Positions 970 to 41,022 of a DNA stretch of 49,026 nt are shown piece after piece. The stretch is from Maribacter sp. (lineage in GTDB: Bacteria; Bacteroidota; Bacteroidia; Flavobacteriales; Flavobacteriaceae), in the NCBI RefSeq assembly GCF_016744255.1, contig NZ_JADGES010000011.1, positions 1 to 49,026 on the forward strand, given 5' to 3'. Under the pieces are notes generated by a model. That model saw only the letters and a list, made by a program, of their open reading frames with translations, made no database searches and was not told the DNA's origin. The position numbers were made by a program, and so were the translations under genes. The first letter of the stretch is position 1; every line of letters begins with the position of its first letter.

Positions 970-1012
970 TGATGCCTGTCATAAAAGTAAGGAGGTAAAT
1001 AAAATATTTTTG
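970..1012 (+). promoter_or_regulatory. Crp/Fnr-type site and -7 element before the porin gene
   Basis: TGATGCCTGTCA at 970-981 (centre 975.5) is followed by a perfect -7 element TATTTTTG at 1005-1012. Centre to first T is 29.5 bp, the same as at the other sites of this window. No TTG lies about 20 bp upstream of the -7, as expected for an activator-dependent promoter. The half sites TGAT and GTCA fit the consensus, but the central bases GCCT differ from the usual ATTT. Confidence 0.7.
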
Positions 1013-1040
1013 CGCTTAAATTTATATCAAACAATCGATT

Positions 1041-2336
1041 ATGAAAAAGCAATTTGTACTATTAGGATTAGCCTTATTTAGTATTCACTTGGGATACTCT
1101 CAATTTACCTTAGATGGTGAATTTCGGCCAAGAACGGAGTATAGAAACGGATATGGTTCTATAATACCAGATGCAGCCGACGCAAGTTTTGCAGTATCTA
1201 CAAGAATACGCTTAAATGCAGGTTATAAAACGGAAGGGTACACTTTTTATTTAAGCTTACAAGATGTGCTTGTTTGGGGAGAAAATAGACAATTAAAACC
1301 AGAAGATAGTAATAACTCTTTTTCTTTATTTGAAGCTTGGGCAGATCTTAAGTTAGGAGAAGGTTTCTCTACAAAATTAGATAGACAAGCTATTGTTTAT
1401 GATAATCAGCGTATTATGGGAGCTGTAGGTTGGGCGCAACAAGCACGTAGTCATGATGCTGCTCTTTTAAAATATGGTAAAGGAAAATTTAAAGCAGATA
1501 TAGGGTTGGCTTATAATCAAGATTTTTCTACAACAACTGGTAACCCTGCTGGTTTTCAGTCGGTTGGTACAGCATATAACACTACGGGCTTTTTTAGCTA
1601 TAAAACAATGCAGTATGCTTACTTAAAACAAAGTGGAGATACTTTTTCAGGGAGTTTTTTGATACTGAATAATGGTTTTCAAAATTTTGAAACGGATGGT
1701 ACTACGCCAGATGGTTTAAGCAACCTACTTACCGTTGGTACGCATTTAGGATATGAGCAAGGTGAATTTGGTGTAGATTTTAATGCATACTTACAATCAT
1801 GAGAAAGACAAGGTTCTGTGGATGTCAGTAGTGCTTATTTATTAGGATTAGATTTAAGCTTAAAAGCTTCACAGAAAATAGGATTAGGAGCTGGTGTCGA
1901 GGTAATAAGTGGAAATGATGCTAGTACAACAAATAAAACGGAAGCCTTTTTTCCATTGTATGGAACTAATCATAAATTCAATGGATTTATGGATTATTTT
2001 TATGTAGGTAACCATGCTAATTCTGTTGGTTTAGTAGATATTCATGTAAGCGTAAAGTTTAAATTAGGAAAAAAATCTAGCTTATTAGTTAAGGCATTAA
2101 ACTTTAGCGGAGAACAAGAATTACCAAGTGGAGAAAAATTTTTAGGAACAGAAATAGATTTAGTTTTTTCGCAGCAATTTAATGGGTATGGTTTAAGTAT
2201 TGGGTATTCTCAATTATTTGCTAGCGATGGTATGTATGAGCTTAAAGGAGTTACAGAGGCTAATGCCGCTGATAGTCAGAATTGGGTTTGGGTTATGTTA
2301 ACGATTAAACCTAAGTTTTTAAATACAACTAAATAA
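1041..2336 (+). pseudogene. Alginate-export-type outer membrane porin, interrupted by in-frame TGA
   Basis: A signal peptide (residues 1-20, MKKQFVLLGLALFSIHLGYS) is followed by a beta-barrel sequence resembling the alginate export porin family (FTLDGEFRPRTEYRNGYG at the start of the barrel). The frame ends at TGA 1800-1802 after 253 codons, then continues in the same frame from 1803 for 178 more codons to TAA at 2334-2336. Together they give about 431 codons, a normal porin length. A single base change would restore the frame, for example GGA to TGA. Both halves keep amphipathic strand patterns, so the damage looks recent, or is a sequencing error. The gene has its own Fnr-type promoter, so the intact porin probably worked under oxygen limitation; its substrate is unknown. 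Confidence 0.75.
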
Positions 2337-2430
2337 AAGTGTTTACACGTTATTCCTTGGGTGTAGGACCGCCACAACTTATTTTATTCTGTTGTATCGG
2401 CTTTTTTATTTTTAAATATAACTTAGTCGT

Positions 2431-2792
2431 AATAGGGGAGCCTCCAATGGGAAAGAGGCTATTGCTATGGTTAAATATTTAGTGCCAAATTTACGTATGC
2501 CAGTAATGAATGGAATGGCCATTATACTTTCTATGCACGATTGTGAAGAGTGTGTTTTTAAAATCAGGAAGTACTTTAGCGGAGAAATTACTTACTTGTA
2601 AATCCTTCTAAAAACTCTTTAGAAGAGCTAGTAAAAAGGATGAAAAGGATTTTTTTTAATCTTATCAGTAAAGAATTTTAGGGTTGGTTTTGTCTGGATT
2701 AACGAATAAAAAAATTAGAGGATAGCAAGCGTAGGGTAGGAACACATCGTTTTAATTTGATGTGTAAAAAGGAAATTAAAAAGGTGCTGTAG
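2431..2792 (+). pseudogene. Remnant of a NarL/LuxR-type response regulator
   Basis: No intact frame exists, but pieces of a receiver plus LuxR DNA-binding regulator can be read in order. Frame one (2431-2601) gives GASNGKEAIAMVKYL, then PNLRMPVMNGMA fused directly to IILSMHDCEECVF, ending at TAA. The second frame (2601-2792) gives NPSKNSLEELVKRMKRIFFN, stops at TAG (2679) and TAA, then VGTHRFNLMCKKEIKKVL before TAG. These pieces match the typical receiver motifs NGKEAI, RMPVMNG and LSMHD and the recognition-helix region THRFNLMQKL. The phospho-acceptor Asp region and the stretch after NG are deleted. The gene is dead. Confidence 0.7.
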
Positions 2793-2826
2793 CTTTCTAA
2801 AAACAAAGGAGCATAATTTAGTTTTT

Positions 2827-3321
2827 TTAATCAAAATCATCATCGCCCATACGATCAATAAGAGCATCTATTTCTTGAATAGCCTCTTTTCTGCGAAGTT
2901 TAGCTTTGGTTATTATTTCTGGAGGGTTATTTGGGTAGGAAATCTGAATATTATAATAATCGATTAATGTTTTTAAAGCATTTAATCGGGCAGCTATTTT
3001 CATTTGCTGTACTTGTTCTTCTAAAGCTTTTTCGGAATTTTTCTGAGCGATAGCAGATTTTTTTAATTCTGTTCTATTCAGAGCTATTTCATTCCTCTGC
3101 ATTTTTAAATCTTCTTTTTGTAAAACAATAGTGTAGATTAATCCAGCAAAAGCAAATCCAGAAAATAACGCATTTACGGCTCCAAAAGAATCGCCAAACG
3201 TTCCTCTGTCTGACCAGTTATCAAGCCCAAATAGAATAAAAATAACGGATAATACCCATATGACTAAAACCAAAATAATCATTTTTGGTAGGAGGCTTTT
3301 TTTAGAATTTTCTTTTTCCAT
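2827..3321 (-). CDS. Small two-TM protein with coiled coil, unknown function
   Basis: About 164 aa. Two membrane segments lie near residues 13-34 and 45-66, followed by a charged helical region (about 70-120) with heptad-like KxxLxxQxxE patterns that suggests a coiled coil on the cytoplasmic side. The motif DRGTFGDSFGAVNALFSGFA between the segments is common in small membrane proteins of unknown function. The codon at 3322-3324 is GTG and is followed at once by ATG at 3321, so I place the start at 3321. It is 14 bp downstream of the DUF5995 gene and probably shares its transcript. No function can be assigned. Confidence 0.7.
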   Translation of the reverse strand: MEKENSKKSLLPKMIILVLVIWVLSVIFILFGLDNWSDRGTFGDSFGAVNALFSGFAFAGLIYTIVLQKEDLKMQRNEIALNRTELKKSAIAQKNSEKALEEQVQQMKIAARLNALKTLIDYYNIQISYPNNPPEIITKAKLRRKEAIQEIDALIDRMGDDDFD

Positions 3322-3335
3322 CACGTAAAAATATT

Positions 3336-4094: not shown

Positions 4095-4104
4095 ACTTTT
4101 TAAA

Positions 4105-4257: not shown

Positions 4258-4328
4258 AACCATAGGTTTTGGTAATACGTTGCATTTTTCTTTATAGGGG
4301 AACTTTAATATACTGTAAGTTAAACAAT

Positions 4329-5918: not shown

Positions 5919-5921
5919 AGT

Positions 5922-6812: not shown

Positions 6813-6878
6813 AATTTAAAAATGTTAAAAAGTAATTTTTTACTAGTATAAAGATATTTTAAAATTCGGTTAGCATGG

Positions 6879-8373: not shown

Positions 8374-8416
8374 TGATATTTATCATGTTTTTTACTTTGA
8401 TATGCGCCTAGTTTTG
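8374..8416 (+). promoter_or_regulatory. Crp/Fnr-type site and -7 element before hemN
   Basis: TGATATTTATCA at 8374-8385 (centre 8379.5) precedes a perfect -7 element TAGTTTTG at 8409-8416. Centre to first T is 29.5 bp. The leader to the hemN ATG at 8434 is very short. Activation under low oxygen makes sense for an oxygen-independent heme-synthesis enzyme. Confidence 0.85.
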
Positions 8417-8433: not shown

Positions 8434-9795
8434 ATGTGCAGTTTAGTTCAAAAATATAATATTCCAGGGCCTAGGTATACTAGCTATCCGACAGTTCCAT
8501 ATTGGAACATGGATACGTTTTCTGGTAAAAAATGGGAGACTACCCTTGCGCAGAGTTTTACTGAAAGTAATGCAGAAGAAGGTATAAGTTTATATATACA
8601 TTTGCCTTTTTGTGAGAGTCTCTGTACGTTTTGTGGCTGTCATAAACGTATAACAAAACGTCATGAAGTAGAATCTCCGTACATAAAAACACTCCTAAAA
8701 GAATGGGAGTTGTATACCAATTTGTTTTCGGAAAGGCCAAGAATAAAAGAATTACACCTTGGTGGAGGTACGCCAACTTTTTTTTCTCCAGAAAATTTAA
8801 AAACGCTTATAAATGGCATTTTTAAGCTAGCAGAGAAAGCAGAAGGATACGAATTTAGTTTTGAAGGCCACCCAAACAATACTACAAGAGAACATTTACA
8901 AGCATTGTATGATGTTGGTTTTAGAAGAGTTAGTTATGGTGTTCAAGATTATAACGAAACAGTACAAAAAGCAATACATAGAATACAGCCCTTTGAAAAT
9001 GTAAAGAGAGCCACAGAAGTAGCCAGAGAAATAGGATATACTTCCGTTGGGCACGATATAATTTTTGGATTACCTTTTCAATCTTTAGAACATGTTAAAG
9101 AGACAATCTTAAAGACAAAAGAGCTTAGGCCCGATCGCTTAGCTTTTTATAGTTATGCCCATGTGCCTTGGTTAAAAGGCAATGGTCAGAGAGGATATAA
9201 AGATGTCGATTTGCCATCTGCAGAGGAGAAGAGAGAGCAGTATGAAAAAGGGAAGAAGTTATTAATAGAAGTAGGTTATAATGAAATAGGTATGGATCAT
9301 TTTGCCTTGCCTTCAGATAGTCTTCATAAATCTATGGATATAGGTGAATTACACCGTAATTTTATGGGATATACGGCATCTAAAACCCAACTTATGGTAG
9401 GTTTAGGAGCTTCTAGTATTAGCGATAGCTGGTATAGCTTTGCGCAAAATGTAAAAAGCTTAGAAGAATATAACCACTTAGTAGAAAATAAAATAATACC
9501 AATATATAGAGGACATATATTAACTAGGGAAGATGAAATAATTAGGAAGCACATTTTAAACCTTATGTGTACATACCAGACCTCATGGTCTAGTGAAAGC
9601 TCGTATTTTAAAGATATAGAGACTGTACTGGGGAAATTGCAAGAAATGCAGTTGGATCAATTGGTGATTATATCGAAAAATACACTGCAAGTAACACAAG
9701 AAGGGAAGCCATTTATACGCAATATATGTATGGCTTTTGACGTTCTTTTACACAGAAAAGCACCAGAAACGCGCTTATTTTCAATGACAATTTAA
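8434..9795 (+). CDS. hemN: Oxygen-independent coproporphyrinogen III oxidase
   Basis: Radical SAM enzyme of 453 aa that converts coproporphyrinogen III to protoporphyrinogen IX without oxygen. The N-terminus PGPRYTSYPTVPYW is the HemN-specific start. The 4Fe-4S cluster motif is CESLCTFC (CX3CX2C, around residue 65-72) followed by GC, as in HemN rather than HemW. GGGTP (about 113-117) is the SAM-binding motif. Length is normal. The gene is followed after 8 bp by a universal stress protein and shares its Fnr-type promoter. The product feeds heme to the cytochromes of the nor, nos and cbb3 systems in this window. Confidence 0.92.
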   Translation: MCSLVQKYNIPGPRYTSYPTVPYWNMDTFSGKKWETTLAQSFTESNAEEGISLYIHLPFCESLCTFCGCHKRITKRHEVESPYIKTLLKEWELYTNLFSERPRIKELHLGGGTPTFFSPENLKTLINGIFKLAEKAEGYEFSFEGHPNNTTREHLQALYDVGFRRVSYGVQDYNETVQKAIHRIQPFENVKRATEVAREIGYTSVGHDIIFGLPFQSLEHVKETILKTKELRPDRLAFYSYAHVPWLKGNGQRGYKDVDLPSAEEKREQYEKGKKLLIEVGYNEIGMDHFALPSDSLHKSMDIGELHRNFMGYTASKTQLMVGLGASSISDSWYSFAQNVKSLEEYNHLVENKIIPIYRGHILTREDEIIRKHILNLMCTYQTSWSSESSYFKDIETVLGKLQEMQLDQLVIISKNTLQVTQEGKPFIRNICMAFDVLLHRKAPETRLFSMTI

Positions 9796-9803: not shown

Positions 9804-10628
9804 ATGATGAAAAAAATAATAGTACCTATAGATTTTTCCGAACAATCCGAAAATGCTTTAAAAGTAGCTGTTTCATTAGCTAAAAAACACGATTCAGAAG
9901 TATTAGCATTACATATGCTAGAATTGAACCAAGCTATGATTTCTTCAGAAGGAGGAATGCATCCGGAACAAACTGTATTTTTTCTAAAACTTGCAGAAAA
10001 AAGATTTAACGCCTTTTTGAGTAAAGACTATTTAAAAGACGTTAAGCTAACTCCAATTATAAAGCATTTTAAAGTTTTTAGTGAAGTAAATGAAGTGGCT
10101 AGCGAGAATAAAGCCGATTTAATTATAATGGGTTCTCATGGTACCGACGGATTAAAAGAGATATTTGTTGGCTCTAATGCAGAAAAAGTAGTTAGGAATG
10201 CAGATATACCAGTATTGGTAATTAAAAAAGAACATGTAGATTTTAAAATAGACAATTTTGTTTTTGCATGCGATTTTAAGGAGGAAAGTCTAGTAGCATA
10301 TAAAAAAGCAAAAGATTTTGCAGATATGTTAAAAGCAAAATTAGAATTAGTTTTTATAAATACTCCAGGAGACGATTTTTTAAGTACTTCGGATGCCTAT
10401 AAACGCATAAATACATTCTTAAGAAAAGGAGGTATAGGAGCAGAAGTAAAGATTTATAATGATTATAGTGTAGAGAAAGGAATATTAAATTATAGTGATA
10501 ATAGCGGTGCTGATATTATCGGAATTCCTACACATGGACGTAAAGGGCTATCACACTTTTTTATGGGTAGTATAGGAGAGGATATTGCAAACCACTCTAA
10601 TGTGCCCGTAGTTACCTTTAGGATTTAG
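9804..10628 (+). CDS. Tandem universal stress protein (UspA family)
   Basis: Protein of 274 aa with two UspA domains (about 1-145 and 150-274). Both keep the ATP-binding pattern: GSHGTDGLKEIFVGSNAEKV in the first and THGRKGLSHFFMGSIGEDIA in the second. Two start ATGs are adjacent (9804 and 9807). It lies 8 bp after hemN and is expected to be cotranscribed from the Fnr-type promoter. Usp proteins are often induced with anaerobic respiration genes; the precise role is unknown. A similar gene, also behind an Fnr-type site, is at 41044-41946. Confidence 0.85.
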   Translation: MMKKIIVPIDFSEQSENALKVAVSLAKKHDSEVLALHMLELNQAMISSEGGMHPEQTVFFLKLAEKRFNAFLSKDYLKDVKLTPIIKHFKVFSEVNEVASENKADLIIMGSHGTDGLKEIFVGSNAEKVVRNADIPVLVIKKEHVDFKIDNFVFACDFKEESLVAYKKAKDFADMLKAKLELVFINTPGDDFLSTSDAYKRINTFLRKGGIGAEVKIYNDYSVEKGILNYSDNSGADIIGIPTHGRKGLSHFFMGSIGEDIANHSNVPVVTFRI

Positions 10629-10746: not shown

Positions 10747-11178
10747 TTATACTGGTAAGAAAGATTTCTGTTGTTCTAAATCTATTGCTAAGTCATTGAT
10801 AGTAGTCTTTTCTAAGTTTTTTATAAAATTTGATTTTGCATTTCCAACCAACCCATGTAAAGGACAAGGGTGATCTTCATTACACTCTTTTAAACTTAGC
10901 ATACAAGATCTTAATCGATGATCTCCATCAATTACATCTACAATTTTTATTAAGGTGGCAGCTCTATTCTCTACATTTAAAAAGAACCCTCCTTTAGGAC
11001 CACGAGTAGAAGATACTAGGTTGTGACGAGATAGTTCTTGTAATAATTTAGCAATATAAGCTCTAGGAACATTAATGGGTTCGCTAATGTTTTTTGCTAA
11101 TATTTTACGGCTCTCATCCGAGTTTAATGCAAGGTATAAAACGGCTTTAAGAGCATATTTTGAAGAGTTCGAAAGCAT
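10747..11178 (-). CDS. Rrf2-family regulator, NsrR-like NO sensor
   Basis: Protein of 143 aa. The N-terminal winged helix (SSKYALKAVLYLAL, then PRAYIAKLLQELSRHNLVSS) is typical of Rrf2 proteins. Three Cys near residues 91-104 (SCMLSLKECNEDHPCPLH) have the spacing CX6CX5C, which is that of Fe-S-binding NsrR/IscR-type regulators. Its place directly before the nos operon favours an NsrR-like nitric oxide sensor over IscR. It is divergent from the nos operon, and the shared intergenic region contains an Fnr-type site and an AAGAC/GTCTT inverted repeat that might be its own operator. NO sensing is inferred, not shown. Confidence 0.8.
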   Translation of the reverse strand: MLSNSSKYALKAVLYLALNSDESRKILAKNISEPINVPRAYIAKLLQELSRHNLVSSTRGPKGGFFLNVENRAATLIKIVDVIDGDHRLRSCMLSLKECNEDHPCPLHGLVGNAKSNFIKNLEKTTINDLAIDLEQQKSFLPV

Positions 11179-11236
11179 AATATAATTAATGGAATGTGAA
11201 AATACTAAACATCTAATAAAAAGGAATAAATATAAA

Positions 11237-11257: not shown

Positions 11258-11300
11258 TGACATTTGTCATAGTTTAAGCTTGCTGACACAATTATTTTTG
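11258..11300. promoter_or_regulatory. Crp/Fnr-type site and promoter of the nos operon
   Basis: TGACATTTGTCA at 11258-11269 (centre 11263.5) precedes a perfect -7 element TATTTTTG at 11293-11300 on the plus strand, 29.5 bp from the centre. On the minus strand TATATTTA (11234-11227) lies at exactly the same distance and could serve the Rrf2 gene; it has one mismatch to TAnnTTTG. The leader to the first nos-operon gene is about 20-25 nt. Confidence 0.85.
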
Positions 11301-18728: not shown

Positions 18729-18771
18729 TGATATTAATCATATTATCAGCAAGGTTGTAGAAGTATTTTTG
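18729..18771 (+). promoter_or_regulatory. Crp/Fnr-type site and promoter of the nor/nir operon
   Basis: TGATATTAATCA at 18729-18740 (centre 18734.5) precedes a perfect -7 element TATTTTTG at 18764-18771, 29.5 bp from the centre. It drives ten closely spaced genes up to 27729. The left side also has a one-mismatch -7-like TAAGTTTT at the same distance, but no leftward gene, which shows that one-mismatch matches can arise by chance in this AT-rich DNA. Confidence 0.85.
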
Positions 18772-19258: not shown

Positions 19259-19279
19259 ACCGACCAAAATAGTATCACA

Positions 19280-20617: not shown

Positions 20618-20638
20618 CACTAACCATAAACCTAAATT

Positions 20639-22898: not shown

Positions 22899-22901
22899 AA
22901 A

Positions 22902-23612: not shown

Positions 23613-23623
23613 AGAATATAATA

Positions 23624-24334: not shown

Positions 24335-24356
24335 TAGAGAACCTATACCGACAGAC

Positions 24357-25136
24357 ATGACTGAAATAGCCCCATATTACCATCAAATAGGAAAAGAAGT
24401 AGAGGTTTTTAATCACAGTTACGAGAACAAAATACCTGTACTTCTAAAAGGCCCTACGGGAACTGGTAAAACACGTTTTGTGGACTATATGGCGCATCAT
24501 TTAAATAAAAAAATGATTACCATTTCTTGCCATGAGGAAACTTCTTCTACAGATTTAATAGGACGTTTTATAATAAAAGGAGCCGAAACCATTTGGATAG
24601 ATGGCCCCTTAACTACTGCTGTTAAAGAAGGAGCAATATTATATATGGATGAAATAGCAGAAGCAAGACCAGATGTTATTGTTGCTATACACTCGTTAAC
24701 AGATCATAGAAAAGAACTCTATATAGATAAACTCGGAAAAACCGTAAAAGCGCATGAAGATTTTATGCTTGTAGCTTCTTTTAATCCAGGGTATCAAAAA
24801 GGATTTAAAGAACTAAAACCATCTACACGACAGCGTTTTATAGCCCTTCCTTTTTCGTACCCTAAAGCTAAAAACGAAACCGAGATTATAGAGAACGAAA
24901 CGGAGATAGAAGGCTCCATAGCGAAGAAGCTTGTTAATATTGCAAATAAAATAAGAAATCTAACAGAATTAGGTTTAACAGAAACAGTATCTACCAGATT
25001 ATTAGTAGATGCAGCGAAATTAATTAAGACTGGTTTGCCTAAGCGTTTGGCAGTTAAGGTAGCAATAGTAGAGCCTCTTACAGACGATAGAGAAATAGCA
25101 GAGGCATTGGTAGATTTATGCGATTTAATGATTTAA
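24357..25136 (+). CDS. norQ: MoxR-type AAA ATPase NorQ
   Basis: Protein of 259 aa. Walker A GPTGTGKTR (residues 32-40), Walker B ILYMDEIAEA (around 99-108), and sensor ASFNPGYQKGFKEL are those of NorQ/CbbQ. It works with NorD as a chaperone that inserts the iron of NorB. Starts 22 bp after ric. Confidence 0.93.
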   Translation: MTEIAPYYHQIGKEVEVFNHSYENKIPVLLKGPTGTGKTRFVDYMAHHLNKKMITISCHEETSSTDLIGRFIIKGAETIWIDGPLTTAVKEGAILYMDEIAEARPDVIVAIHSLTDHRKELYIDKLGKTVKAHEDFMLVASFNPGYQKGFKELKPSTRQRFIALPFSYPKAKNETEIIENETEIEGSIAKKLVNIANKIRNLTELGLTETVSTRLLVDAAKLIKTGLPKRLAVKVAIVEPLTDDREIAEALVDLCDLMI

Positions 25137-25142
25137 GACCCT

Positions 25143-26912: not shown

Positions 26913-27488
26913 ATGACCAGTACTAACACTAATTCTCCAAATTTTTATTATCCTCCAGGGGGAATTTTAATGGGCATTATTATTTTTTTAGAGCTTTTTA
27001 CCTATGGAGTTTCTTTAATTGTTATGGTGTATTATGGGCAAGAAGAAGCCAAAGTATTTCATGAGTCTAGGTTGCGCTTAAATATTACAATAGGGACTAT
27101 AAATACGATGTTGTTAATTACCAGTGGCTTTTTTATGGCTACGGGAGTTGCATATTTTAAAAATAAGAATTTTAGTAAAGCGGCTTTTTTTATAAAGCTA
27201 ACTATTTTAGGAGGGTTCCTTTTTTTAGGCTTTAAGAGTTTTGAATTCTACGAAAAAATAGAAGCAGGTTTAACTCTAGGAACCAACACTTTTTTTACCT
27301 TTTATTGGTTGCTAACAGTATTTCATTATATACATGTAGTAGTAGGTATAATAATTTTATTTTCTATTCTTAGAGGTGTAGCAAAGGGAGAATCGAACAT
27401 AGAGGACATAGAAGCTAGTGCAGCTTTTTGGCATATGTGCGATTTAATATGGCTTTTATTATTTCCTATACTCTATTTATTATTTTAG
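26913..27488 (+). CDS. norE: NorE-like cytochrome c oxidase subunit III family protein
   Basis: Protein of 191 aa with five membrane segments (about 16-40, 55-77, 86-106, 120-145, 168-190). It matches the short subunit III-like NorE proteins, with HESRLRLNITIGTINTMLLI, YIHVVVGIIIL and AAFWHMCDLIWLLLFPILYL as family-like stretches. It is not essential for NO reduction in other bacteria, but supports full activity. The start follows the norD stop without any gap. Confidence 0.85.
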   Translation: MTSTNTNSPNFYYPPGGILMGIIIFLELFTYGVSLIVMVYYGQEEAKVFHESRLRLNITIGTINTMLLITSGFFMATGVAYFKNKNFSKAAFFIKLTILGGFLFLGFKSFEFYEKIEAGLTLGTNTFFTFYWLLTVFHYIHVVVGIIILFSILRGVAKGESNIEDIEASAAFWHMCDLIWLLLFPILYLLF

Positions 27489-27787: not shown

Positions 27788-29593
27788 CTAAACGATGATA
27801 CCTTTTAATGGTTTTGGTAGTTGCATTTTTTCAATTTCAACAGCCATATTATCCAGTACATTCTTGCCAAGTTCTAACTCTTTTAAGAAAGATGTTTTTG
27901 TAACAAATAGATTTTGGTAGTATGCTATACCTTCATTTAAGTTGTTCTTAAAAGTAGTAAGGTATTTAATCTGTTTGGCCGTAATTGTATTTTTGGTTTC
28001 CTCGATTTTTTCTTCTAAATAATCTAGATACATGCTAAGTTCTTTAATAAACATATGCGGGCGATCCGTTCTTGTAATAATATTAGTACGTCCGTAAATA
28101 TGGTTTGTAATCTCTTCTAATTTCATAATTTTAGAGAAATATGCCATATTAGGTCCAGGGCAAATAGATACGCCTGTTCCTTCTGTTTTTGTGTCTAATC
28201 CATATGCTAGTAGGGCAGATGTTCCTAGACCAACACAGATACAAGATTTTTCAACAATTTTTTCGTATTTACTATTGTATTCTTCTTTAGTTATAACTTC
28301 TTTTTCTAACTCTTGTAATTTTAAGTGTTGGTATTGCCTAGAGGCTATGCATAAATCTGTACCGTTAAATTCTTTGTTTAAAGAAACAAACTTTTTAGGA
28401 CAAGAGCTTCCTGGTCTGTTTTTAGCAATATTAACTGCTTTCTCACCATCTTTAGTATTACCCCTTAAACTCTGGAAACGAACTCCTAAAGGAGAAATAT
28501 TACTTAGGTAAAGGTCTTTTTCTTTAGCTTTTACTAGCTTTTCAACGGTAGCATTATCTACAGTTGTAGCTTCAGGAACTAATAAGAAAGGAGTTCCCCA
28601 ACCTACAGAATCTACCTGATAGTGATTAAGCATAAAATCGTGCTCTTCCGATGTTCCTACACCACCTTGAGCCGTTAATTTTATAGGCAATACTTTTACA
28701 GGAGCAGCTTTACCTTTTCTTTCTAAAGCAGGAGCAAAAATAGCATGAATAGAAGCGGCTAAAGAATCTTTTTTTTCTTTAAATTGTTCTAGTATAGGCC
28801 CCATTAAATAACCATCTGTAGCAAAAGCGTGTCCGCCACAATTTAAGCCAGATTCTATACGGTACTCGGATACCCAAAGCCCTTTTTTGGCTAAGAATTT
28901 CCCTTGAATTAGAGCGGATCTAAAGTCGCTAACTTTAAGCACTATTTTCTTTTTTATGTATCCATTTTCATCCGGGAAAAAATCCTCGAATTGTTCTAGA
29001 TAGCTATACAACCTAGGATTCATTCCTGCAGATAAAATAAGAGAAGAGCTAAGGTCACTAGTAGCGTATCCTCTAAGCGCAGCATGAGCATCGTTATACT
29101 CTGTTGGAAGTTGCTCTTTCTTTACATAATTATCCTTATCTACTTTAGTCATGATGTTAACATCAATACTACCCATAGATAAATTGTCTTTAAGCCAATG
29201 CTTAATTTCATCTACATTAAAATGCTCTTTGGTAAGTTTATTAAACTCTTGTTTTAATGACGAAGAATCTGGTAAAATAGAAAAATATTTTTTTATTTCA
29301 TTACTAGATTCTTGCGTAGCATTTTTAAATGCCTCGAACTTCTCTTCTGCTAAATCTTGAATAAGATTAAGGTAAGAGGTTATTCTTTTGGCTCTAAAAT
29401 CCTCTGCTTTTTCCGTTATTTCCGAATAAGGTAATTCTGAAATTTCGCAATACATTTTGCGAAGTTTCTCTAATAGAATATCATCTACTAAAGAAATAAC
29501 AGAGTCTATTCCAAAATGGGAAACTTTTAAAGGAGAATCTATGGTAAAGCCTATTCCCATAACAGGAATGTGAAACGAATGTGTTTTTGCCAT
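27788..29593 (-). CDS. 601-aa protein of unknown function, possibly an FMN-type TIM barrel
   Basis: I do not recognise the family. It has no signal peptide or membrane segment. The motif TAQGGVGTSEEHDF followed by VGWGTPFLLVPEA resembles the phosphate-binding end of FMN-dependent TIM barrels such as nitronate monooxygenase-like enzymes, and the N-terminus (PVMGIGFTIDSPLKVSHFGI) could be the first barrel strand. Several Cys lie in conserved-looking settings: LNCGGHAFATDGY, GSSCPKKF, TDLCIASRQY, KSCICVGLG and VSICPGPNMAYF, which might hold an Fe-S cluster. The last 90 residues are a charged helical region. It shares a divergent Fnr-type site with the next gene, so it probably belongs to the denitrification/microaerobic regulon. 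All functional statements are inference. Confidence 0.6.
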   Translation of the reverse strand: MAKTHSFHIPVMGIGFTIDSPLKVSHFGIDSVISLVDDILLEKLRKMYCEISELPYSEITEKAEDFRAKRITSYLNLIQDLAEEKFEAFKNATQESSNEIKKYFSILPDSSSLKQEFNKLTKEHFNVDEIKHWLKDNLSMGSIDVNIMTKVDKDNYVKKEQLPTEYNDAHAALRGYATSDLSSSLILSAGMNPRLYSYLEQFEDFFPDENGYIKKKIVLKVSDFRSALIQGKFLAKKGLWVSEYRIESGLNCGGHAFATDGYLMGPILEQFKEKKDSLAASIHAIFAPALERKGKAAPVKVLPIKLTAQGGVGTSEEHDFMLNHYQVDSVGWGTPFLLVPEATTVDNATVEKLVKAKEKDLYLSNISPLGVRFQSLRGNTKDGEKAVNIAKNRPGSSCPKKFVSLNKEFNGTDLCIASRQYQHLKLQELEKEVITKEEYNSKYEKIVEKSCICVGLGTSALLAYGLDTKTEGTGVSICPGPNMAYFSKIMKLEEITNHIYGRTNIITRTDRPHMFIKELSMYLDYLEEKIEETKNTITAKQIKYLTTFKNNLNEGIAYYQNLFVTKTSFLKELELGKNVLDNMAVEIEKMQLPKPLKGIIV

Positions 29594-29645: not shown

Positions 29646-29719
29646 CAAATTTTCGATTATTCTAGCTCAAAAAACATGATATTTGTCAGGGATTAAGTGC
29701 AGTATTGTAATTAGATTAA
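29646..29719. promoter_or_regulatory. Divergent Crp/Fnr-type promoter region
   Basis: TGATATTTGTCA at 29677-29688 (centre 29682.5). To the right TAGATTAA at 29712-29719 and to the left (minus strand) AAAATTTG at 29653-29646 are both exactly 29.5 bp from the centre. Both are imperfect matches to TAnnTTTG (two mismatches and one mismatch). The site lies between the two divergent unknown genes and is the only candidate promoter element seen in this 130-bp gap. Confidence 0.65.
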
Positions 29720-29723: not shown

Positions 29724-30944
29724 ATGAAACCAACCATCTTAAAACTAAGGCAGCATATTTTAATAGCACTTGGGTTCTTTTTTATAGCGGCTTTCTTGGG
29801 AGTTATATTGCGTTCTTTCCATTTACTAGATATTCCTGTGAATTATAAATTTATAGTTCATACACATTCTCATATAGCTCTTTTGGGGTGGGTTTATTTG
29901 GCTTTAACTACTTTGTTGTATAAATTATATTTAAGTGATGAAAATTTGGATAAGCGCTATAGTCGAATTTTTTGGTTTACCCAAGTCACCTTAGTAGGAA
30001 TGTTATTAAGTTTTCCTTTTCAAGGGTATGCTGTAGTGTCTATTATCTTTTCAACCTTGTTTCTATTTGCTTCTTACTGGTTTACTTGGTTTTTTATTAA
30101 GAATACGCCTAAAAAATATAAAAAAACGTATGCTTATACCTGTTTTTTAATTGCCTTAAGTTATTTGTTACTCTCTAGTATTGGACCATGGGTATTGGGT
30201 ATTATTATGAACACTTTAGGGCCAACCTCTATCTGGTACCGAATAGCGATATACTTTTATTTACATTTTCAGTACAATGGCTGGATGATTATGGGATTGA
30301 TTGGGATTTTCTTTTTTGTAATGGAAAGTTATAAAATAGAAATAGAAAAGATTAGGTTTTTACGCTTTGTCTGGAGTTTTAATATAGGAATAATACTAAC
30401 CTTTTTACTTTCCGTTTTATGGATTAGTCCTCCTTTATATGTTAATTATATTGCTGGTATTGGTGCATTATTACAAATATTTGCTTTTGGGTGCTTAATA
30501 TTCATGTATTTAAAACAAGTAACTAATTCCAGCGAATTGTTCTCTAGTATACAAGCAAGAATGCTTAGTTTATTAGTTGTTTTAATGGTTCTTAAAATGT
30601 CTTTACAATTACTATCTTCTTTTCCTTATTTTGCAAAACTTGCGGCTACGGTCTTAAGTTTTACTATAGGCTATTTGCATTGGACGTTTTTAGGAGTAGT
30701 CACCATAGGACTTTTTTTATTTTTAGATTTTTTTAGGTTAATTAGAATATCTAAAATAAGTTTCTATGTGTATGTTTTTGGTTTTTTACTGACAGAAATT
30801 TTAATCTTTTCGAGGGGGTTTAGTATTTGGCAGAATATTGTAATGTTCGAAAATTATGAAGTAGTATTGGTTATTGTAAGTGTTTTTATTCCTTTAGCGT
30901 TACTGCTTATTTTTAAAAATAATATAAAAAGGGCTTATTCTTAG
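29724..30944 (+). CDS. Polytopic membrane protein resembling heme-copper oxidase subunit I but lacking its metal centre
   Basis: Protein of 406 aa with about 12 membrane segments. By eye it parallels NorB and CcoN: VHTHSHIALLGW (His46, 48, 50) matches the TM2 heme-ligand region (VHTNLLVVWL in NorB), YLHFQYNGWMIMG (His181) matches VHLWVEGVWELIMG, and YLHWTFLG (His319) matches HGHLAFWG. The His of the high-spin heme is replaced by Tyr317, and the His-His pair of the FeB/CuB site is missing. A bis-His low-spin heme could still bind, but no oxygen or NO reduction would be expected. An NnrS-type protein is the other possibility. It is placed behind an Fnr-type site. Confidence 0.55.
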   Translation: MKPTILKLRQHILIALGFFFIAAFLGVILRSFHLLDIPVNYKFIVHTHSHIALLGWVYLALTTLLYKLYLSDENLDKRYSRIFWFTQVTLVGMLLSFPFQGYAVVSIIFSTLFLFASYWFTWFFIKNTPKKYKKTYAYTCFLIALSYLLLSSIGPWVLGIIMNTLGPTSIWYRIAIYFYLHFQYNGWMIMGLIGIFFFVMESYKIEIEKIRFLRFVWSFNIGIILTFLLSVLWISPPLYVNYIAGIGALLQIFAFGCLIFMYLKQVTNSSELFSSIQARMLSLLVVLMVLKMSLQLLSSFPYFAKLAATVLSFTIGYLHWTFLGVVTIGLFLFLDFFRLIRISKISFYVYVFGFLLTEILIFSRGFSIWQNIVMFENYEVVLVIVSVFIPLALLLIFKNNIKRAYS

Positions 30945-35131: not shown

Positions 35132-35134
35132 AGC

Positions 35135-37336
35135 TTATTTGTTTTCAGAGATTAATTCGCCTGTTTCTTTTATTTTAATATCTGTGCCTAAACGTTGTAA
35201 GTAAGCAATTAGAGATACAATTTCTCTGTCTCTCATCTCTACAAACTCATCGCCATTATCAGCAGCATATTTTTTGTCTTCTTCATATCCTTTTGCAAAA
35301 TCAGGATCAGCGTATAGATTTTTTTCTATTTGCTCTGCCTGTTTAGCCATATTTGCATCAGCGTTAGCAATATCTTCTTCGGTGTAAGGAACGCCTAAAG
35401 TTACCATTGCTTCCAATTTGGTTTTAATGTTACTACGGTCGTGCTTGTCTCTTACCATCCATTGGTATGCTGGCATTATAGAGCCAGAAGAAGTACTTTG
35501 TGGATCGTACATGTGATTTAGGTGCCAGTTGTCAGAGTATTTTCCTCCAACTCTAAGTAAATCTGGACCTGTACGTTTACTACCCCATAAGAATGGATGA
35601 TCGTAAACAAATTCTCCAGCTTTAGCATATTCGCCATAACGCTCTACTTCACTTCGGAAAGGACGTACCATTTGAGAGTGACAACCCACACAACCTTCTC
35701 TAATATAAAGGTCTCTTCCTTCTAATTCTAAAGGAGTGTAAGGTTTGACACTTGTTATTGTTGGGATATTAGATTTTACCATTATGACTGGCATTATCTC
35801 GATTATACCACCAATTAATATAGCAACTGTTGCTAATATGGTTAATTGTATTGGCTTACGTTCTAACCAAGTGTGGTAAGTTTCTCCAGATGTTCTCTTT
35901 TTAGATACTCTTATTAATGGAGCAGCTTCTGCCAATTCGTCTTCTACTTTTGCTCCAGATCTAATTGTAATGATAACATTGTAAATCATCACTAATGCAC
36001 CAAGAATAAATAAACTACCACCGATAGCACGCATCCAATACATTGGGATTATTTCATGAACTGTTTCTAAGAAGTTACCATAAACTAAAGTTCCGTCGGG
36101 ATTAAATTCTTTCCACATTAATGCTTGTATAAACCCAGCAACGTACATTGGTAAAGTGTACAGGATGATTCCTAAAGTACCAATCCAAAAATGGAAATTA
36201 GCCAATCCATTAGAGTAAAGTTTGGTTTTAAACATTTTAGGAACCAGCCAGTATATCATACCGAAAGTTAAGAATCCGTTCCATGCTAAGGCGCCAACGT
36301 GCACGTGAGCAATAATCCAGTCACTAAAGTGAGCAATAGCATTTACATTTTTAAGTGAAAGCATTGGGCCTTCAAAGGTTGCCATACCATAACCAGTAAT
36401 AGCAACTACCATGAATTTTAAAGTTGGGTCCGTTCTAACTTTATCCCAAGCACCTCTCAATGTTAATAAACCGTTTATCATACCACCCCAAGATGGAGCA
36501 ATTAGCATAACAGAAAAAGCAACACCTAAATTTTGTGCCCAGTCTGGTAAAGCAGAGTATAATAAGTGGTGTGGTCCTGCCCAGATATATATAAATATTA
36601 AAGACCAAAAGTGAACAATAGAAAGTTTATAAGAATAAACTGGTCTGTTTGCTGCTTTAGGAACAAAGTAATACATTAACCCTAAGAAAGGAGTAGTAAG
36701 GAAGAATGCAACTGCATTGTGTCCGTACCACCATTGTACTAACGCATCTTGTACCCCTGCATAAACAGAGTAACTTTTAAATGCACTTACAGGAAGTTCT
36801 AAACTGTTAAAAATATGTAGTACCGCAACAGTAACAAATGTTGCAACATAAAACCAAATTGCGACATATAGATGACGTTGTCTTCTTTTGATCATGGTAC
36901 CAATAAGGTTAATACCAAATGCTACCCAAATAACTGCAATAGCAAGATCAATAGGCCATTCTAATTCTGCATACTCTTTAGAAGTAGAGTATCCTAGAGG
37001 AAGTGTAATAGCTGCCGCAACAATAATCAATTGCCATCCCCAGAAATTAACTTTACTAAGAACATCACTAAACATTCTTGCTTTTAGTAAACGTTGCGTA
37101 GAGTAGTATACTCCGGCAAAAATTGCGTTTCCTACAAATGCAAAAATAACGGCATTGGTGTGTAACGGCCTTAAACGACCAAAACTTAACCAAGATATAC
37201 CATCTGTTACATTTGGAAACAAAAACATAAAGGCTAATAAAAGCCCTACGGACATTCCCACTACACCCCAAAACATAGTTGCATAGAGGAAATTCTTTAC
37301 GATTTTGTTGTCGTAATAAAATTGCTGTACTTCCAT
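35135..37336 (-). CDS. ccoN: cbb3 oxidase fused subunits I and II (CcoNO)
   Basis: Protein of 733 aa. Residues 1-470 are CcoN: low-spin heme and CuB ligands are seen in LRPLHTNAVIFAFVGNAIF, WWYGHNAVAFFLTTPFLGL, WAGPHHLLYS and DWIIAHVHVGALAWNGF. From about 515 on is CcoO with CVGCHSQMVRPFRSEVERYG and WGSKRTGPDLLRVGGKYS. The fusion of N and O is known from Bacteroidota. It is the terminal oxidase for growth at very low oxygen. The protein starts 6 bp after ccoS. Confidence 0.95.
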   Translation of the reverse strand: MEVQQFYYDNKIVKNFLYATMFWGVVGMSVGLLLAFMFLFPNVTDGISWLSFGRLRPLHTNAVIFAFVGNAIFAGVYYSTQRLLKARMFSDVLSKVNFWGWQLIIVAAAITLPLGYSTSKEYAELEWPIDLAIAVIWVAFGINLIGTMIKRRQRHLYVAIWFYVATFVTVAVLHIFNSLELPVSAFKSYSVYAGVQDALVQWWYGHNAVAFFLTTPFLGLMYYFVPKAANRPVYSYKLSIVHFWSLIFIYIWAGPHHLLYSALPDWAQNLGVAFSVMLIAPSWGGMINGLLTLRGAWDKVRTDPTLKFMVVAITGYGMATFEGPMLSLKNVNAIAHFSDWIIAHVHVGALAWNGFLTFGMIYWLVPKMFKTKLYSNGLANFHFWIGTLGIILYTLPMYVAGFIQALMWKEFNPDGTLVYGNFLETVHEIIPMYWMRAIGGSLFILGALVMIYNVIITIRSGAKVEDELAEAAPLIRVSKKRTSGETYHTWLERKPIQLTILATVAILIGGIIEIMPVIMVKSNIPTITSVKPYTPLELEGRDLYIREGCVGCHSQMVRPFRSEVERYGEYAKAGEFVYDHPFLWGSKRTGPDLLRVGGKYSDNWHLNHMYDPQSTSSGSIMPAYQWMVRDKHDRSNIKTKLEAMVTLGVPYTEEDIANADANMAKQAEQIEKNLYADPDFAKGYEEDKKYAADNGDEFVEMRDREIVSLIAYLQRLGTDIKIKETGELISENK

Positions 37337-37342
37337 AATTAA

Positions 37343-37549: not shown

Positions 37550-37568
37550 ACCTACCTGAATTCGGGCG

Positions 37569-37611
37569 TAAAAATACACCTGTGATTATCCAAAAAAAAT
37601 GACATTTGTCA
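37569..37611 (-). promoter_or_regulatory. Crp/Fnr-type site and promoter of the ccoS-ccoNO operon
   Basis: TGACATTTGTCA at 37600-37611 (centre 37605.5) and, on the minus strand, TATTTTTA at 37576-37569 (one mismatch to TAnnTTTG), with centre to first T of 29.5 bp. The site lies 5 bp after the ccoI stop, so the ccoS operon has its own promoter in addition to read-through from ccoI. Confidence 0.8.
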
Positions 37612-37616
37612 GTTTT

Positions 37617-40028
37617 TTAATATTTTTTATTCTTTTTTTTGTTTAATTTTCTTCCTAAAAGATTCGTTGCGATCGTCGTAAAAGCAACAACACTGATAGA
37701 GCTTAAGGGCATTAATATTGCCGCTATTACAGGTTGTAATTGTCCAGTAATTGCAAAGTATAAACCTACAACGTTATATAACAAAGATAGAAGAAAACTC
37801 CATTTAATTATCTGCATTGCTTTTTTTGAAGCTAAAATAAAAGAATGTAAATCTTTAAATTTTGTAGCATCTAGAATACCATCACAAGCAGGTGAAAATA
37901 CATTCACATTTTCGGATATTGCAATACCAACATTACTTTGAGCTAAAGCTCCCGCATCATTTAAGCCATCTCCTATCATCATAACCATTTTGCCTTGGTT
38001 TTGTAAAGATTTTATAAACTCTAGCTTATCTTCTGGCTTTTGGTTAAAATATAAAGGAGTTAGTTTTGGTAATAATTTTTCTAGCCTAGATTTTTCTCCA
38101 GAATTATCTCCAGATAAAATTGCTAGGTTTAAGGTTTGGGACATTGCAGTAAATAAGTCTGCTAATCCATCTCTATATTCATTATGAAATACAAAACGTC
38201 CCTTGTAATTGTCATTACTACTTATATAGACAGATGTGTTTTCAATATCTTTTGTTTCTGTATTACCAATAAATTCTGCAGACCCAATTTTCATGGTGTC
38301 CTTTTCTTTGGTTCCAGAAATACCTTTGCCTAAGTGTTCTTCATATTCATCAAGGGTAATAATATTTTGCTCGGAAAGCATATCATACAAAGTTCTGCTT
38401 AATGGATGATTAGAAGAGCGTAAGGTGTTTTTTAATAAAGATTCTTCTTCTTTATTAAGGGTGTATCCTTCATAGGTGGCTGTACTTTTTTTAGCTGCAG
38501 TAATGGTTCCTGTTTTGTCGAAAATTGCAGTGTCTATTCTGGCAAGTTGCTCAATAGTATAGGTGTCTTTTAGGTAGAATTTTTTGTTTCCGAAAATACG
38601 AAGCATGTTTCCTAAAGTAAAAGGAGAGGCTAAAGCGATGGCACATGGACATGCAATTATTAATACAGCGGTAAATACGTTTAGAGCCATACTGCTATCG
38701 TAATAAAGCCAAAAGGCAGTCGCTGTAAATGCAATGCTTAAAACCGCAATTGTAAAACGTTTGCCAATACTATCTGTAATCGATTGAAATTTACTTGTCT
38801 TATTATTTTGAAAAACAGCATTGCTCCATAACTGGGTAAGGTAACTTTGCGATACCGATTTTAGAGCTTCCATTTCCATGGCACTATTTAGTTGTTTTCC
38901 GCCTGCATAGACCTTATTCCCGGACTCTTTTGTAACAGGCTCAGATTCTCCAGTAACAAAGCTATAGTCAATTTGTGTTTTCTTGCTAATTAAGATTCCA
39001 TCTACAGGAATAAGCTCTTCGTTTCTAATAAGAATTCTGTCGCCTCTTTTTATATCATATACTTGAGCAGTCTCTTCTTTTCCGTTGCTAAGAATACGTG
39101 TTACTGCAATTGGGAAGTAAGATTTATAGTCTCTTTCAAAAGATAAAAAGGAATATGTCTTTTGTTGAAAAAATTTGCCTAACAATAAAAAGAAAACAAG
39201 GCCTGTTAGGCTGTCAAAAAAACCAGGGCCCGAATTAAAAATTATATCTGCAGTACTTCTTAAAAATAACACTAAGATTCCAAGGGATATTGGAACATCA
39301 ATATTTAAAAGTTTAGAACGAAGGCCTTTGTAGGCAGATATAAAATAATCTTGAGCAGCATAGAAAACTACAGGCAAAGAGAAAGTAAACATTAGCCAAC
39401 GGAAAATATCTTGGTATTTATTCAGCCAATATTCGCCGCCATCTATAGCGCTAGAAGCTAAATCAAAATATTCAGGAAAAGATAAAAACATGACATTCCC
39501 AAAAGCAAATCCAGCGACACCTAACTTATAAATTAGAGCTTTATTTGACGCTTCTTCTTTTTTATCTAAATCGTCTAAAGAAATATAGGGTTCATAGCCA
39601 ATACGTGCTAGCAATATGACCAACTGTTTTAACGTAATTGTTTCTGGGGCGTATGTTATACGAACTGTTTTTTTAGGAAAATCTACCTGAGAATGATTAA
39701 CGTTGGAATTTAATTTGTTTAAATTTTCTAAAACCCAAATACAAGAACTACAATGTATGTGTGGAATATAGAGATTTATTATCTGTATATTTTCGTCATT
39801 AAACTCGGTAAGTTTGTCAATGATTTCAGGATTTTCTAAGAAATCATATTTTCCATCGATTTCATTAGGAGTAGTGCCTGCAGAAGATTCTATGTCGTAA
39901 TAATATGATAAATCATTGCTCTGAAATATCTCATAGACTGTTTTGCATCCATTACAACAGAATTTTTTATCATCAAATTCTATAGGGGAATTTCCACAAT
40001 CGTCACCACAATGGAAACATTCTGCCAT
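37617..40028 (-). CDS. ccoI: Copper-exporting P1B ATPase of cbb3 assembly, CcoI (FixI)
   Basis: Protein of 803 aa. The N-terminal Cys-rich region (MAECFHCGDDCG, then FCCNGCKTVYEIF) and a heavy-metal-associated domain (IHCSSCIWVLENL) are followed by membrane segments, TGES in the actuator domain, CPC in IIACPCAIALASPF, DKTGT and GDGLNDAGAL. It pumps copper for the CuB site of CcoN. The frame is open to 40094, but I place the start at 40028 (MAECFHCG): the family starts there, and the predicted transcript start (about 40054) excludes the longer form. Confidence 0.93.
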   Translation of the reverse strand: MAECFHCGDDCGNSPIEFDDKKFCCNGCKTVYEIFQSNDLSYYYDIESSAGTTPNEIDGKYDFLENPEIIDKLTEFNDENIQIINLYIPHIHCSSCIWVLENLNKLNSNVNHSQVDFPKKTVRITYAPETITLKQLVILLARIGYEPYISLDDLDKKEEASNKALIYKLGVAGFAFGNVMFLSFPEYFDLASSAIDGGEYWLNKYQDIFRWLMFTFSLPVVFYAAQDYFISAYKGLRSKLLNIDVPISLGILVLFLRSTADIIFNSGPGFFDSLTGLVFFLLLGKFFQQKTYSFLSFERDYKSYFPIAVTRILSNGKEETAQVYDIKRGDRILIRNEELIPVDGILISKKTQIDYSFVTGESEPVTKESGNKVYAGGKQLNSAMEMEALKSVSQSYLTQLWSNAVFQNNKTSKFQSITDSIGKRFTIAVLSIAFTATAFWLYYDSSMALNVFTAVLIIACPCAIALASPFTLGNMLRIFGNKKFYLKDTYTIEQLARIDTAIFDKTGTITAAKKSTATYEGYTLNKEEESLLKNTLRSSNHPLSRTLYDMLSEQNIITLDEYEEHLGKGISGTKEKDTMKIGSAEFIGNTETKDIENTSVYISSNDNYKGRFVFHNEYRDGLADLFTAMSQTLNLAILSGDNSGEKSRLEKLLPKLTPLYFNQKPEDKLEFIKSLQNQGKMVMMIGDGLNDAGALAQSNVGIAISENVNVFSPACDGILDATKFKDLHSFILASKKAMQIIKWSFLLSLLYNVVGLYFAITGQLQPVIAAILMPLSSISVVAFTTIATNLLGRKLNKKKNKKY

Positions 40029-40057
40029 TTCTTTACTTACATTTGCTATACCTATTA

Positions 40058-40131
40058 CAAAGGTGGTCAAATAGGTTGTTATAAAACATGACAATTGTCA
40101 GTTTTTTTATATATTGGTAAGAGTATTTTTG
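40058..40131. promoter_or_regulatory. Divergent Crp/Fnr-type promoter of ccoI and the regulator gene
   Basis: TGACAATTGTCA at 40089-40100 (perfect palindrome, centre 40094.5). To the right is a perfect TATTTTTG at 40124-40131, 29.5 bp away, before the regulator gene at 40158. To the left on the minus strand CACCTTTG (40065-40058; one mismatch) is at the same distance before ccoI. One bound dimer could activate both, and this gives positive autoregulation. Confidence 0.8.
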
Positions 40132-40157
40132 TTTAGTCAGGTGTAAAAATAAAGGGT

Positions 40158-40847
40158 ATGGAAAGTAGATGTGAAAATTGTATTGTTCGTCAATTTAATT
40201 CTTTACGCGCGATGAGTAAGGAAGAACTTAAGGAAGTTTCTGATTCTAAGGTGACTAAGAAGTATAAGAAGGGAGAGACTCTTTTTGAGGAAGGTGAAAA
40301 ATTGAATGGTGTTTTTTGTGTTAGAGAAGGGGTTTCTAAAATGTCTAAACTTAGTGCGAATGGTAAAGATCAAATTGTAAAACTAGCAACTACTGGAGAG
40401 GTTATAGGGCAACGGGCAGTAATTGTAGAAGAGCCTACTAATTTAAGTGCTATTGCAGTGAATGATATGGAAGTGTGTTTTGTTCCTAAAGAGATTATTG
40501 TTAATAGTATGCATAAAAATCCAGACTTCACTTTAGAAGTTTTACGCCATATGGCACACGATTTAAAAGAGGCAGATGACGTTATTGTTAATATGTCTCA
40601 AAAAACAGTGAAGCAGCGTATTGCCGAGGCTTTTTTGTATTTAAAAAATAATTATGGAGTAGATGAAGAGGGGTATTTAAGCCTTACTCTTTCTAGAGAA
40701 GACATTGCAAATGTGGTTGGTACTGCAACCGAATCTTGTATTAGAATTATATCTGAGTTTAAGAAAAAAGGATATTTAAAAACATCAGGAAAGCGAATAG
40801 GGATAGCCAATGAAAAAGAGCTGCAAGATTTAATAGATGGCTTTTAA
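40158..40847 (+). CDS. Crp/Fnr-family regulator of the denitrification and cbb3 genes
   Basis: Protein of 229 aa. Residues about 15-130 are the cyclic-nucleotide-type sensor domain, followed by a dimer helix and a winged helix with LSREDIANVVGTATESCIRI (about 178-197). The recognition helix keeps Glu192 and Arg196, which match Fnr Glu209 and Arg213 that contact TGA; Ser212 of Fnr is replaced by Ile195. This fits the sites here, TGAYNNNNRTCA, which lack the first T of the Fnr site. Cys5 and Cys8 (CENC) plus Cys54 and Cys107 might bind an Fe-S cluster; a NO-sensing heme as in DNR is an alternative. The gene carries such a site in its own promoter. Confidence 0.88.
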   Translation: MESRCENCIVRQFNSLRAMSKEELKEVSDSKVTKKYKKGETLFEEGEKLNGVFCVREGVSKMSKLSANGKDQIVKLATTGEVIGQRAVIVEEPTNLSAIAVNDMEVCFVPKEIIVNSMHKNPDFTLEVLRHMAHDLKEADDVIVNMSQKTVKQRIAEAFLYLKNNYGVDEEGYLSLTLSREDIANVVGTATESCIRIISEFKKKGYLKTSGKRIGIANEKELQDLIDGF

Positions 40848-40877
40848 ATTTTTATATTGTTTATCGGGCTTAAACCC

Positions 40878-40909
40878 TTCTTTAAAAAGACTTTAGTTTT
40901 TTTAAAGAA
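40878..40909 (+). terminator. AT-rich hairpin after the regulator gene
   Basis: TTCTTTAAAAA at 40878-40888 pairs with TTTTTAAAGAA at 40899-40909 across a 10-base loop. A T tract after the stem is lacking, so termination is uncertain. It overlaps the palindrome AAGAACGTTCTT at 40905-40916. Confidence 0.35.
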
Positions 40910-40979
40910 CGTTCTTATGTATTAAAGACCTCTATATTACTAGGGATTTCAATTGTTTATTTTTTGCTCTATTTAAAAC

Positions 40980-41022
40980 TGATATTTGTCATAGTTTTAG
41001 AGATGTTGCCGTGCTAATTTTA
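40980..41022 (+). promoter_or_regulatory. Crp/Fnr-type site and promoter of the second usp gene
   Basis: TGATATTTGTCA at 40980-40991 (centre 40985.5) and TAATTTTA at 41015-41022 (one mismatch to TAnnTTTG). Centre to first T is 29.5 bp. ATG follows at 41044. Confidence 0.75.

Follow-up and report, generated by a model that had tools for sequence, protein, structure and literature searches.

The DNA considered here is a stretch of 49,026 nucleotides from a Maribacter sp. (contig NZ_JADGES010000011.1; hereafter the window, always at its full length), one contig of a 3.59-Mb draft genome, in which a short palindrome recurs at a fixed distance from promoter elements and a regulator of the CRP/FNR superfamily is encoded at 40158. 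The palindrome, TGAYNNNNRTCA, occurs ten times in the window; 100 dinucleotide shuffles average 2.31 copies and reach 7 at most. Eight copies (at 970, 8374, 11258, 18729, 29677, 37600, 40089 and 40980) lie where an earlier reading of the letters by themselves (the sequence-only reading) had placed them, and in all eight the palindrome centre is 29.5 bp from the first base of a -7 element resembling TAnnTTTG, as that reading had also claimed; this corresponds to 23 bases between the 12-mer and the -7 element, or gap 23. Its tally of the elements was likewise right: five are perfect (970, 8374, 11258, 18729 and 40089), two have one mismatch (40980, plus strand; 37600, minus strand) and one has two (29677, plus strand). 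The other two palindromes, at 10919 in an Rrf2-like open reading frame (ORF) and at 12787 in the nosZ ORF, are intragenic and have at least three mismatches at gap 23 on both strands. The features of the locus, with the palindromes as putative operators, are:

970-981, plus strand: operator of a porin-like gene (1041-1802), with -7 element TATTTTTG at 1005-1012 and the ATG 36 bases past the first -7 base
8374-8385, plus strand: operator of hemN (8434-9795) and then a usp gene (9804-10628), with -7 element TAGTTTTG at 8409-8416
10747-11178, minus strand: Rrf2-family regulator gene (PF02082, 99 bits), the probable leftward target of the operator at 11258
11258-11269, both strands: two-way operator of the nos operon and the Rrf2-family gene, with rightward -7 element TATTTTTG at 11293-11300 and leftward TATATTTA at 11227-11234 (minus)
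18729-18740, plus strand: operator of the nor/nir operon (18821-27488), with -7 element TATTTTTG at 18764-18771
29677-29688, both strands: operator between two ORFs without a family, with leftward AAAATTTG at 29646-29653 (minus, one mismatch) and rightward TAGATTAA at 29712-29719 (two mismatches)
37600-37611, minus strand: operator of the cbb3 oxidase operon (35135-37336, onward to 30951), with -7 element TATTTTTA at 37569-37576 (minus)
37617-40028, minus strand: ccoI-like copper P-type ATPase of 803 aa, its ATG at 40028, 37 bases on from CACCTTTG
40089-40100, both strands: two-way operator of the regulator gene and ccoI, with rightward -7 element TATTTTTG at 40124-40131 and leftward CACCTTTG at 40058-40065 (minus)
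40158-40847, plus strand: FNR-like CRP/FNR regulator of 229 aa (PF00027, PF13545), with C5, C8, C54 and C107 and recognition helix GTATESCIR
40980-40991, plus strand: operator of a usp gene (41044-41946), with -7 element TAATTTTA at 41015-41022

The predicted targets in the window are the porin-like gene, hemN with its usp gene, nos, nor/nir, the cbb3 operon, the regulator itself, the copper ATPase and the second usp gene. HemN matches TIGR00538 at 419 bits (cut-off 325) and is followed by a Usp protein; the nos operon encodes a Sec-type NosZ (942 bits), NosL and NosD; and the cbb3 operon comprises ccoNO, FixG, FixH, FixP and DsbD_2. The families found in the nor/nir operon are cytochrome c, multicopper oxidase with cytochrome c, and COX3, the names NorB and NorD being suggested by gene order and weak matches. 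The porin-like protein matches Alginate_exp below cut-off. Three leftward -7 elements at gap 23 had escaped the sequence-only reading, namely TATATTTA at 11258 and AAAATTTG at 29677, each with one mismatch, and CACCTTTG at 40089. With an element at the same gap on the left, these three operators probably act in both directions, rather than in one as first read, and there are therefore probably about ten likely promoters in the window. A leftward one-mismatch match at 18729 (TAAGTTTT), with no gene on that side, is probably due to chance. The site at 29677 is real, but its gene assignment shifts: leftward AAAATTTG is nearer to consensus than rightward TAGATTAA, so that the 601-aa leftward ORF (27788-29593, minus strand; one mismatch against two) is preferred to the rightward ORF (29724-30944, plus strand) first assigned to the site. 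Neither ORF matches a Pfam or NCBIfam family above cut-off, and both are possibly new low-oxygen genes.

Among the gaps from 8 to 38, exact -7 elements in the window form five pairs with palindromes at gap 23 and none at any of the 30 others; if one mismatch in the -7 element is tolerated, with both strands counted, 11 pairs stand at gap 23 and the 30 others together hold 8. In none of 200 first-order Markov simulations of the window did any one gap hold more than one pair (exact) or three (one mismatch). Across the whole genome there are 29 palindrome/-7 pairs at gaps of 8-38, of which 19 stand at gap 23 (binomial 7e-22); the reversed pattern yields 7 over all these gaps and none at the fixed gap of 23. 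When one mismatch is allowed in the 43-base pattern, the genome has 47 matches versus 10 reversed, and TAnnTTTA accounts for 13 of its 28 one-mismatch matches. Relatives were compared at 106 loci (80 with close orthologues of the regulator, 25 more divergent, and the window), in 95 of which a palindrome lies no more than 260 bases from the regulator gene. In the 80 loci, once the operator of the regulator gene is set aside, 150 TAnnTTTA elements are at gap 23 and 5 at the 30 others together. Since both elements are short and AT-rich, the fixed spacing might be put down to chance or to the base composition of AT-rich intergenic DNA, and two of the ten window palindromes are plain coding matches; against the 19 pairs to none in the genome, the 200 simulations and the 150 to 5 in relatives, this explanation can practically be dismissed. 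The arrangement is real and far beyond chance. Both scans by which the sequence-only reading had proposed to check itself came out in its favour: random positions, represented by the reversed pattern, do not show the motif pair equally often, and the pair is enriched at gap 23 in its own genome and common to the family.

The comparison also revealed order within the -7 elements. A leftward, ccoI-side -7 element (at most one mismatch) stands at gap 23 in 80 of the 95 palindrome loci, every other gap holding five or fewer, and is the most constant feature of the regulator locus. Tallies per position used elements with A2, T5, T6 and T7 intact; genes in relatives were assigned by position, and the loci are related, so the counts are not independent events. 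On this basis the final base is A in 77/77 elements at the usp position and in 71/73 at the cco position, the first base is T in 0/64 at the ccoI position, and TAnnTTTG occurs in 43/45 at the regulator position. The elements at 37600 and 40980, originally described as mismatched, are indeed one base off, but they are conserved TAnnTTTA elements and no sloppy copies. Such single departures may keep the promoters silent without the activator; alternatively, they may reflect a second sigma factor.

The regulator at 40158 belongs to the CRP/FNR superfamily (PF00027 66.4 bits, PF13545 55.1 bits, both above cut-off), and its nearest named relatives are from Maribacter, at 92% identity. Alignment to Aliivibrio fischeri FNR matches C5 and C8 with two N-terminal cluster cysteines and C107 with the strand cysteine; the third N-terminal FNR cysteine is replaced by N, S or T, and C54 stands opposite an FNR alanine. 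C5, C8, C54 and C107 are invariant in 81/81 close proteins and in 29/29 others down to ~38% identity, and are found together in 18/20 more distant proteins. The two exceptions, the paralogues L208 and L209 in two family genomes, lack C54 and carry an N-terminal CxxCx4C, a set nearer to the classical FNR cysteines. Such an either-or pattern would be expected of a moved cluster ligand. In a structure model (pLDDT 90.7) C54 lies in strand 51-57 and C107 in strand 104-110, and Foldseek gives P. gingivalis Crp (2GAU) as the best neighbour (TM 0.87), with holo-FNR 5e44 at TM 0.81. The helix GTATESxIR retains two residues, Glu and Arg, that CRP and FNR also use, and among the three PF13545 proteins of the genome the window's alone combines CxxC with an FNR-like helix. 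A tandem pair of Crp-like regulators is encoded at G000:C9:5205-6638; both have CRP-type helices, and one has a TAA inside the match.

The half-site in the 19 exact sites of the genome is A/C-TGAY, position 7 being A in 27, C in 9, G in 2 and T in none of the 38 half-sites; among 568 half-sites in the 80 loci, which come from few orthologous promoters and are not independent, it is T in 2 and G in 4. The FNR half-site is TTGAT, within the operator consensus TTGATnnnnATCAA, from which MTGAY departs, and the FNR helix has S where the window regulator has I. A rule by which the recognition helix predicts position 7 gained no clear support: the FNR-like-helix genomes G204 and G110 gave 0 and 0, and T7 occurs in G008 and G308. 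The NCBIfam Fnr model NF008365 gives 104.5 bits, under its cut-off of 228. Judged by cysteine positions, curated model score and operator consensus, each of them tested, the protein is not a classical FNR on sequence. Nor does it have the marks of a cAMP receptor protein, for which TGTGA and Arg180 are diagnostic: G occupies position 7 in 2/38 half-sites, and T191 stands at the place of Arg180 (by eye).

A class II operator has its textbook place at -41.5. PMC9723704 places the flavobacterial sigma-A box at -12 to -5; therefore the operator centre, which at all eight sites is 29.5 from the first -7 base, falls at -41.5, the start position being taken from that box. The palindromes are probably class II operators on which the FNR-like product of the 40158 gene acts. 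From motif, spacing, conservation, targets and cysteines we infer a mechanism of binding, activation and oxygen sensing in which, at low oxygen, the cluster would be kept and the dimer would bind MTGAY-N4-RTCAK centred at -41.5. The bound dimer would contact RNA polymerase at a -7 element of TAnnTTTG or a one-base variant, and the -33 TTG would be dispensable. Genes for heme synthesis would be activated, as would those for the cbb3 oxidase and its copper loader, for the reduction of N2O and of NO/nitrite, usp genes and others, and some operators would drive divergent promoters on both sides. The oxygen sensor is probably a [4Fe-4S] cluster on C5, C8 and C107, with C54 standing in for the third N-terminal cysteine of classical FNR. 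Oxygen limitation in F. psychrophilum raises the expression of cbb3 and heme genes (PMC9723704), which by analogy is in line with low-oxygen activation.

Beyond the window's own genome the pattern is widespread. Some pair at a gap of 8-38 was found in 39 of 40 genomes (own and relatives), and in ten relatives 50 of 150 among the matches listed stand at gap 23. The exact 43-base pattern occurs in 124/296 Bacteroidota genomes, including 30/30 of the window's family, and the reversed pattern never exceeds two per genome among the 296. The mean count follows the best regulator match, from 9.9 (E<=1e-60, n=26) through 3.5 (1e-40 to 1e-60, n=30) and 2.1 (1e-20 to 1e-40, n=44) to 0.39 (no match at 1e-20, n=196), and a palindrome lies within 200 bp upstream of the regulator gene in 69/80 close orthologues. 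The earlier proposal of one regulon with class II geometry, likely run by the 40158 regulator, is thus well supported by genome-wide and comparative counts; the motif is wider than proposed, extending to all 30 family genomes. The highest count of the 296 (28 exact matches) is that of G308 (family f60, outside the window's class), which includes symmetric TTGAC/GTCAA sites at the matching gap.

Several observations weigh against assigning every site to this one protein or against the proposed cluster. The link between regulator similarity and motif count is confounded, both following kinship. Within the window's family, G168 and G271 have no regulator match at 1e-20 and carry 3 and 7 pattern matches, and G091 and G126 have weak regulator matches only and carry 6 and 9; another regulator must therefore share the motif there, and the motif is not always tied to the window regulator protein itself. 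TTGAY-N4-RTCAA stands at the matching gap in G008 (3/5 matches) and G308 (4/6), and among the six genomes tested it is absent from G204 and G110 despite an FNR-like helix. In A. fischeri FNR a cysteine that is not a ligand lies three residues ahead of the C54 position, and some exact matches, such as that upstream of deoC and those inside coding sequence, may be due to chance.

Matches in genomes that lack a close counterpart of the regulator also bear on whether a different CRP/FNR-type protein, either an NO sensor like DNR or NnrR or one of the tandem Crp-like pair on C9, binds the palindromes, the window regulator being simply another target. The presence of nor, nir and nos among the targets is classical for NO sensors, and DNR, NnrR and HcpR control such genes elsewhere (PMC1274295, available part). 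Yet the genome has only three PF13545 proteins, and the C9 pair has the helices SSREVISR and TSRVVVSR and no CxxC. Furthermore, the conserved set is dominated by cbb3, hemN and usp, the motif is present in promoters of the regulator, and DNR, NnrR and HcpR are without FNR-type cysteines in the available text of PMC1274295, whereas the window regulator keeps four. Binding by a different protein is therefore unlikely, and control by the 40158 regulator is preferred.

The regulator's own promoter departs from the rigid geometry. Its -7 element stands at gap 23 in some lineages and at gap 9 (or 8, 10 or 11) in others, the gap-9 element (at most one mismatch) being present in 31/95 loci with a palindrome. 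At gap 9 the operator, centred at about -27.5, probably represses because it would cover the -33 region. This bears on the idea that the palindrome is generally a repressor site, where a protein at -41.5 blocks polymerase or is a mere roadblock in some promoters. The gap-9 elements of several lineages fit such a role, but gap 23 is invariant at all other promoters, and a repressor tolerates variable spacing while an activator does not. In addition, inspection by eye showed no -33 TTG consensus next to the window operators, and these promoters therefore look activator-dependent. General repression is quite improbable, and class II activation remains the preferred account of gap 23.

On a protein tree of 78 rows (46 activating, 32 repressing) the two states require at least 4 changes, versus at least 21 in 100 shuffles. 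Rows called other or none were excluded from this parsimony count; L127, whose palindrome is at -244, was set to none, and L165, whose one-mismatch match 156 bases upstream is probably chance, was dropped (with L165 kept, the count is 5). By this count at least four shifts of the -7 element, from an activating to a probably repressing position or back, appear to have taken place, on a tree in which 39/103 inner branches, many of the deep ones among them, are weakly supported. Of 12 loci that lack the motif, 10 have an AACCTA...TAGGTT-type sequence centred at the same 29.5, which suggests that a different class II regulator can perhaps occupy the same place. The loci with a AACCTATAAAATTATAGGTT-like sequence 29.5 bp from TAnnTTT[GA] are L083, L104, L108, L116, L117, L124, L126, L131, L133 and L136.

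Elsewhere in the genome, exact sites precede genes for phosphate acetyltransferase, a ribosome hibernation factor with usp, another usp, a pyridine-nucleotide oxidoreductase, thioredoxin and a pyridoxamine-oxidase-like protein; less expected are a glyoxalase-fold protein, MlaE and a DeoC-like protein. At G000:C27:117018-117091 a single palindrome has a perfect TAATTTTG at gap 23 on both sides, a predicted two-way class II promoter flanked by genes for a periplasmic binding protein and a TonB-receptor-like protein (named by eye). For three other family genomes all 20 exact sites were taken, of which 18 have an ORF within 450 bases, and 10 proteins were scanned: hemN lies behind exact sites in 3/3 and ccoN in 2/3, and nirK, ribB and a 2-oxoacid oxidoreductase occur once each.

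Among known systems, proteobacterial FNR (E. coli, A. fischeri) is alike in its CRP/FNR fold, three aligned cysteines, helix E and R, class II operator centre at -41.5 and low-oxygen respiration targets. It differs in that the window regulator has C54, and N, S or T for the third N-terminal cysteine, and in that the window regulon uses TAnnTTTG, not TATAAT. The regulator would work like FNR, yet appears to be set apart from classical FNR. HcpR, DNR and NnrR are also CRP/FNR regulators of nitrogen-oxide genes, and the cyanobacterial HcpR motif TTGACnnnnGTCAA has a TGAC core in common with the window motif, whereas HcpR2 in Bacteroides uses GTAACnnnnGTTAC, unlike it; in the available part of that source (Rodionov 2005, PMC1274295) no such spacing to a TAnnTTTG element was found for these regulons. 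Absence of FNR-type cysteines and GTAAC or CTTGA motifs, which would mark members of these groups, do not describe the window regulator, with its four invariant cysteines and other half-site. FixK2 and B. subtilis Fnr are CRP/FNR activators of cbb3 or anaerobic genes in the available text of PMC12937710. The latter also departs from the classical ligand set, with its cluster in the C-terminal domain, and FixK2, which lacks a cluster, has Cys183 as its single reactive cysteine, whereas all four cysteines of the window regulator are in the N-terminal domain. P. gingivalis Crp, the best structural neighbour and likewise a Bacteroidota CRP/FNR protein, is described, in the accessible part of PMC12040651, as cAMP-independent, with no cluster and a proposed box resembling that of E. 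coli Crp.

As far as its texts were accessible, the open-licence PMC literature yielded no description of this motif with this spacing, of which an earlier account may exist, and no regulon or operator for a flavobacterial or Bacteroidota oxygen switch. The full combination, in which a Bacteroidota-wide branch of oxygen sensors has moved a ligand to C54 on a beta-strand, reads an MTGAY code, depends on conserved single -7 departures to set activator dependence and has repeatedly switched its own gene between activation and repression as the -7 element shifted 14 bp past an operator that stayed in place, is tentative, its chances lying a little short of even. If true, it would show clearly how a metal-cluster ligand can change its place in a protein that retains the cluster, and would offer a natural series in which a regulator's self-control changes sign. 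Among the major carriers of Sec-type NosZ, which removes the greenhouse gas N2O, are flavobacteria and other Bacteroidota, and the rigid operator-promoter pair would make the low-oxygen regulon readable from any such genome.

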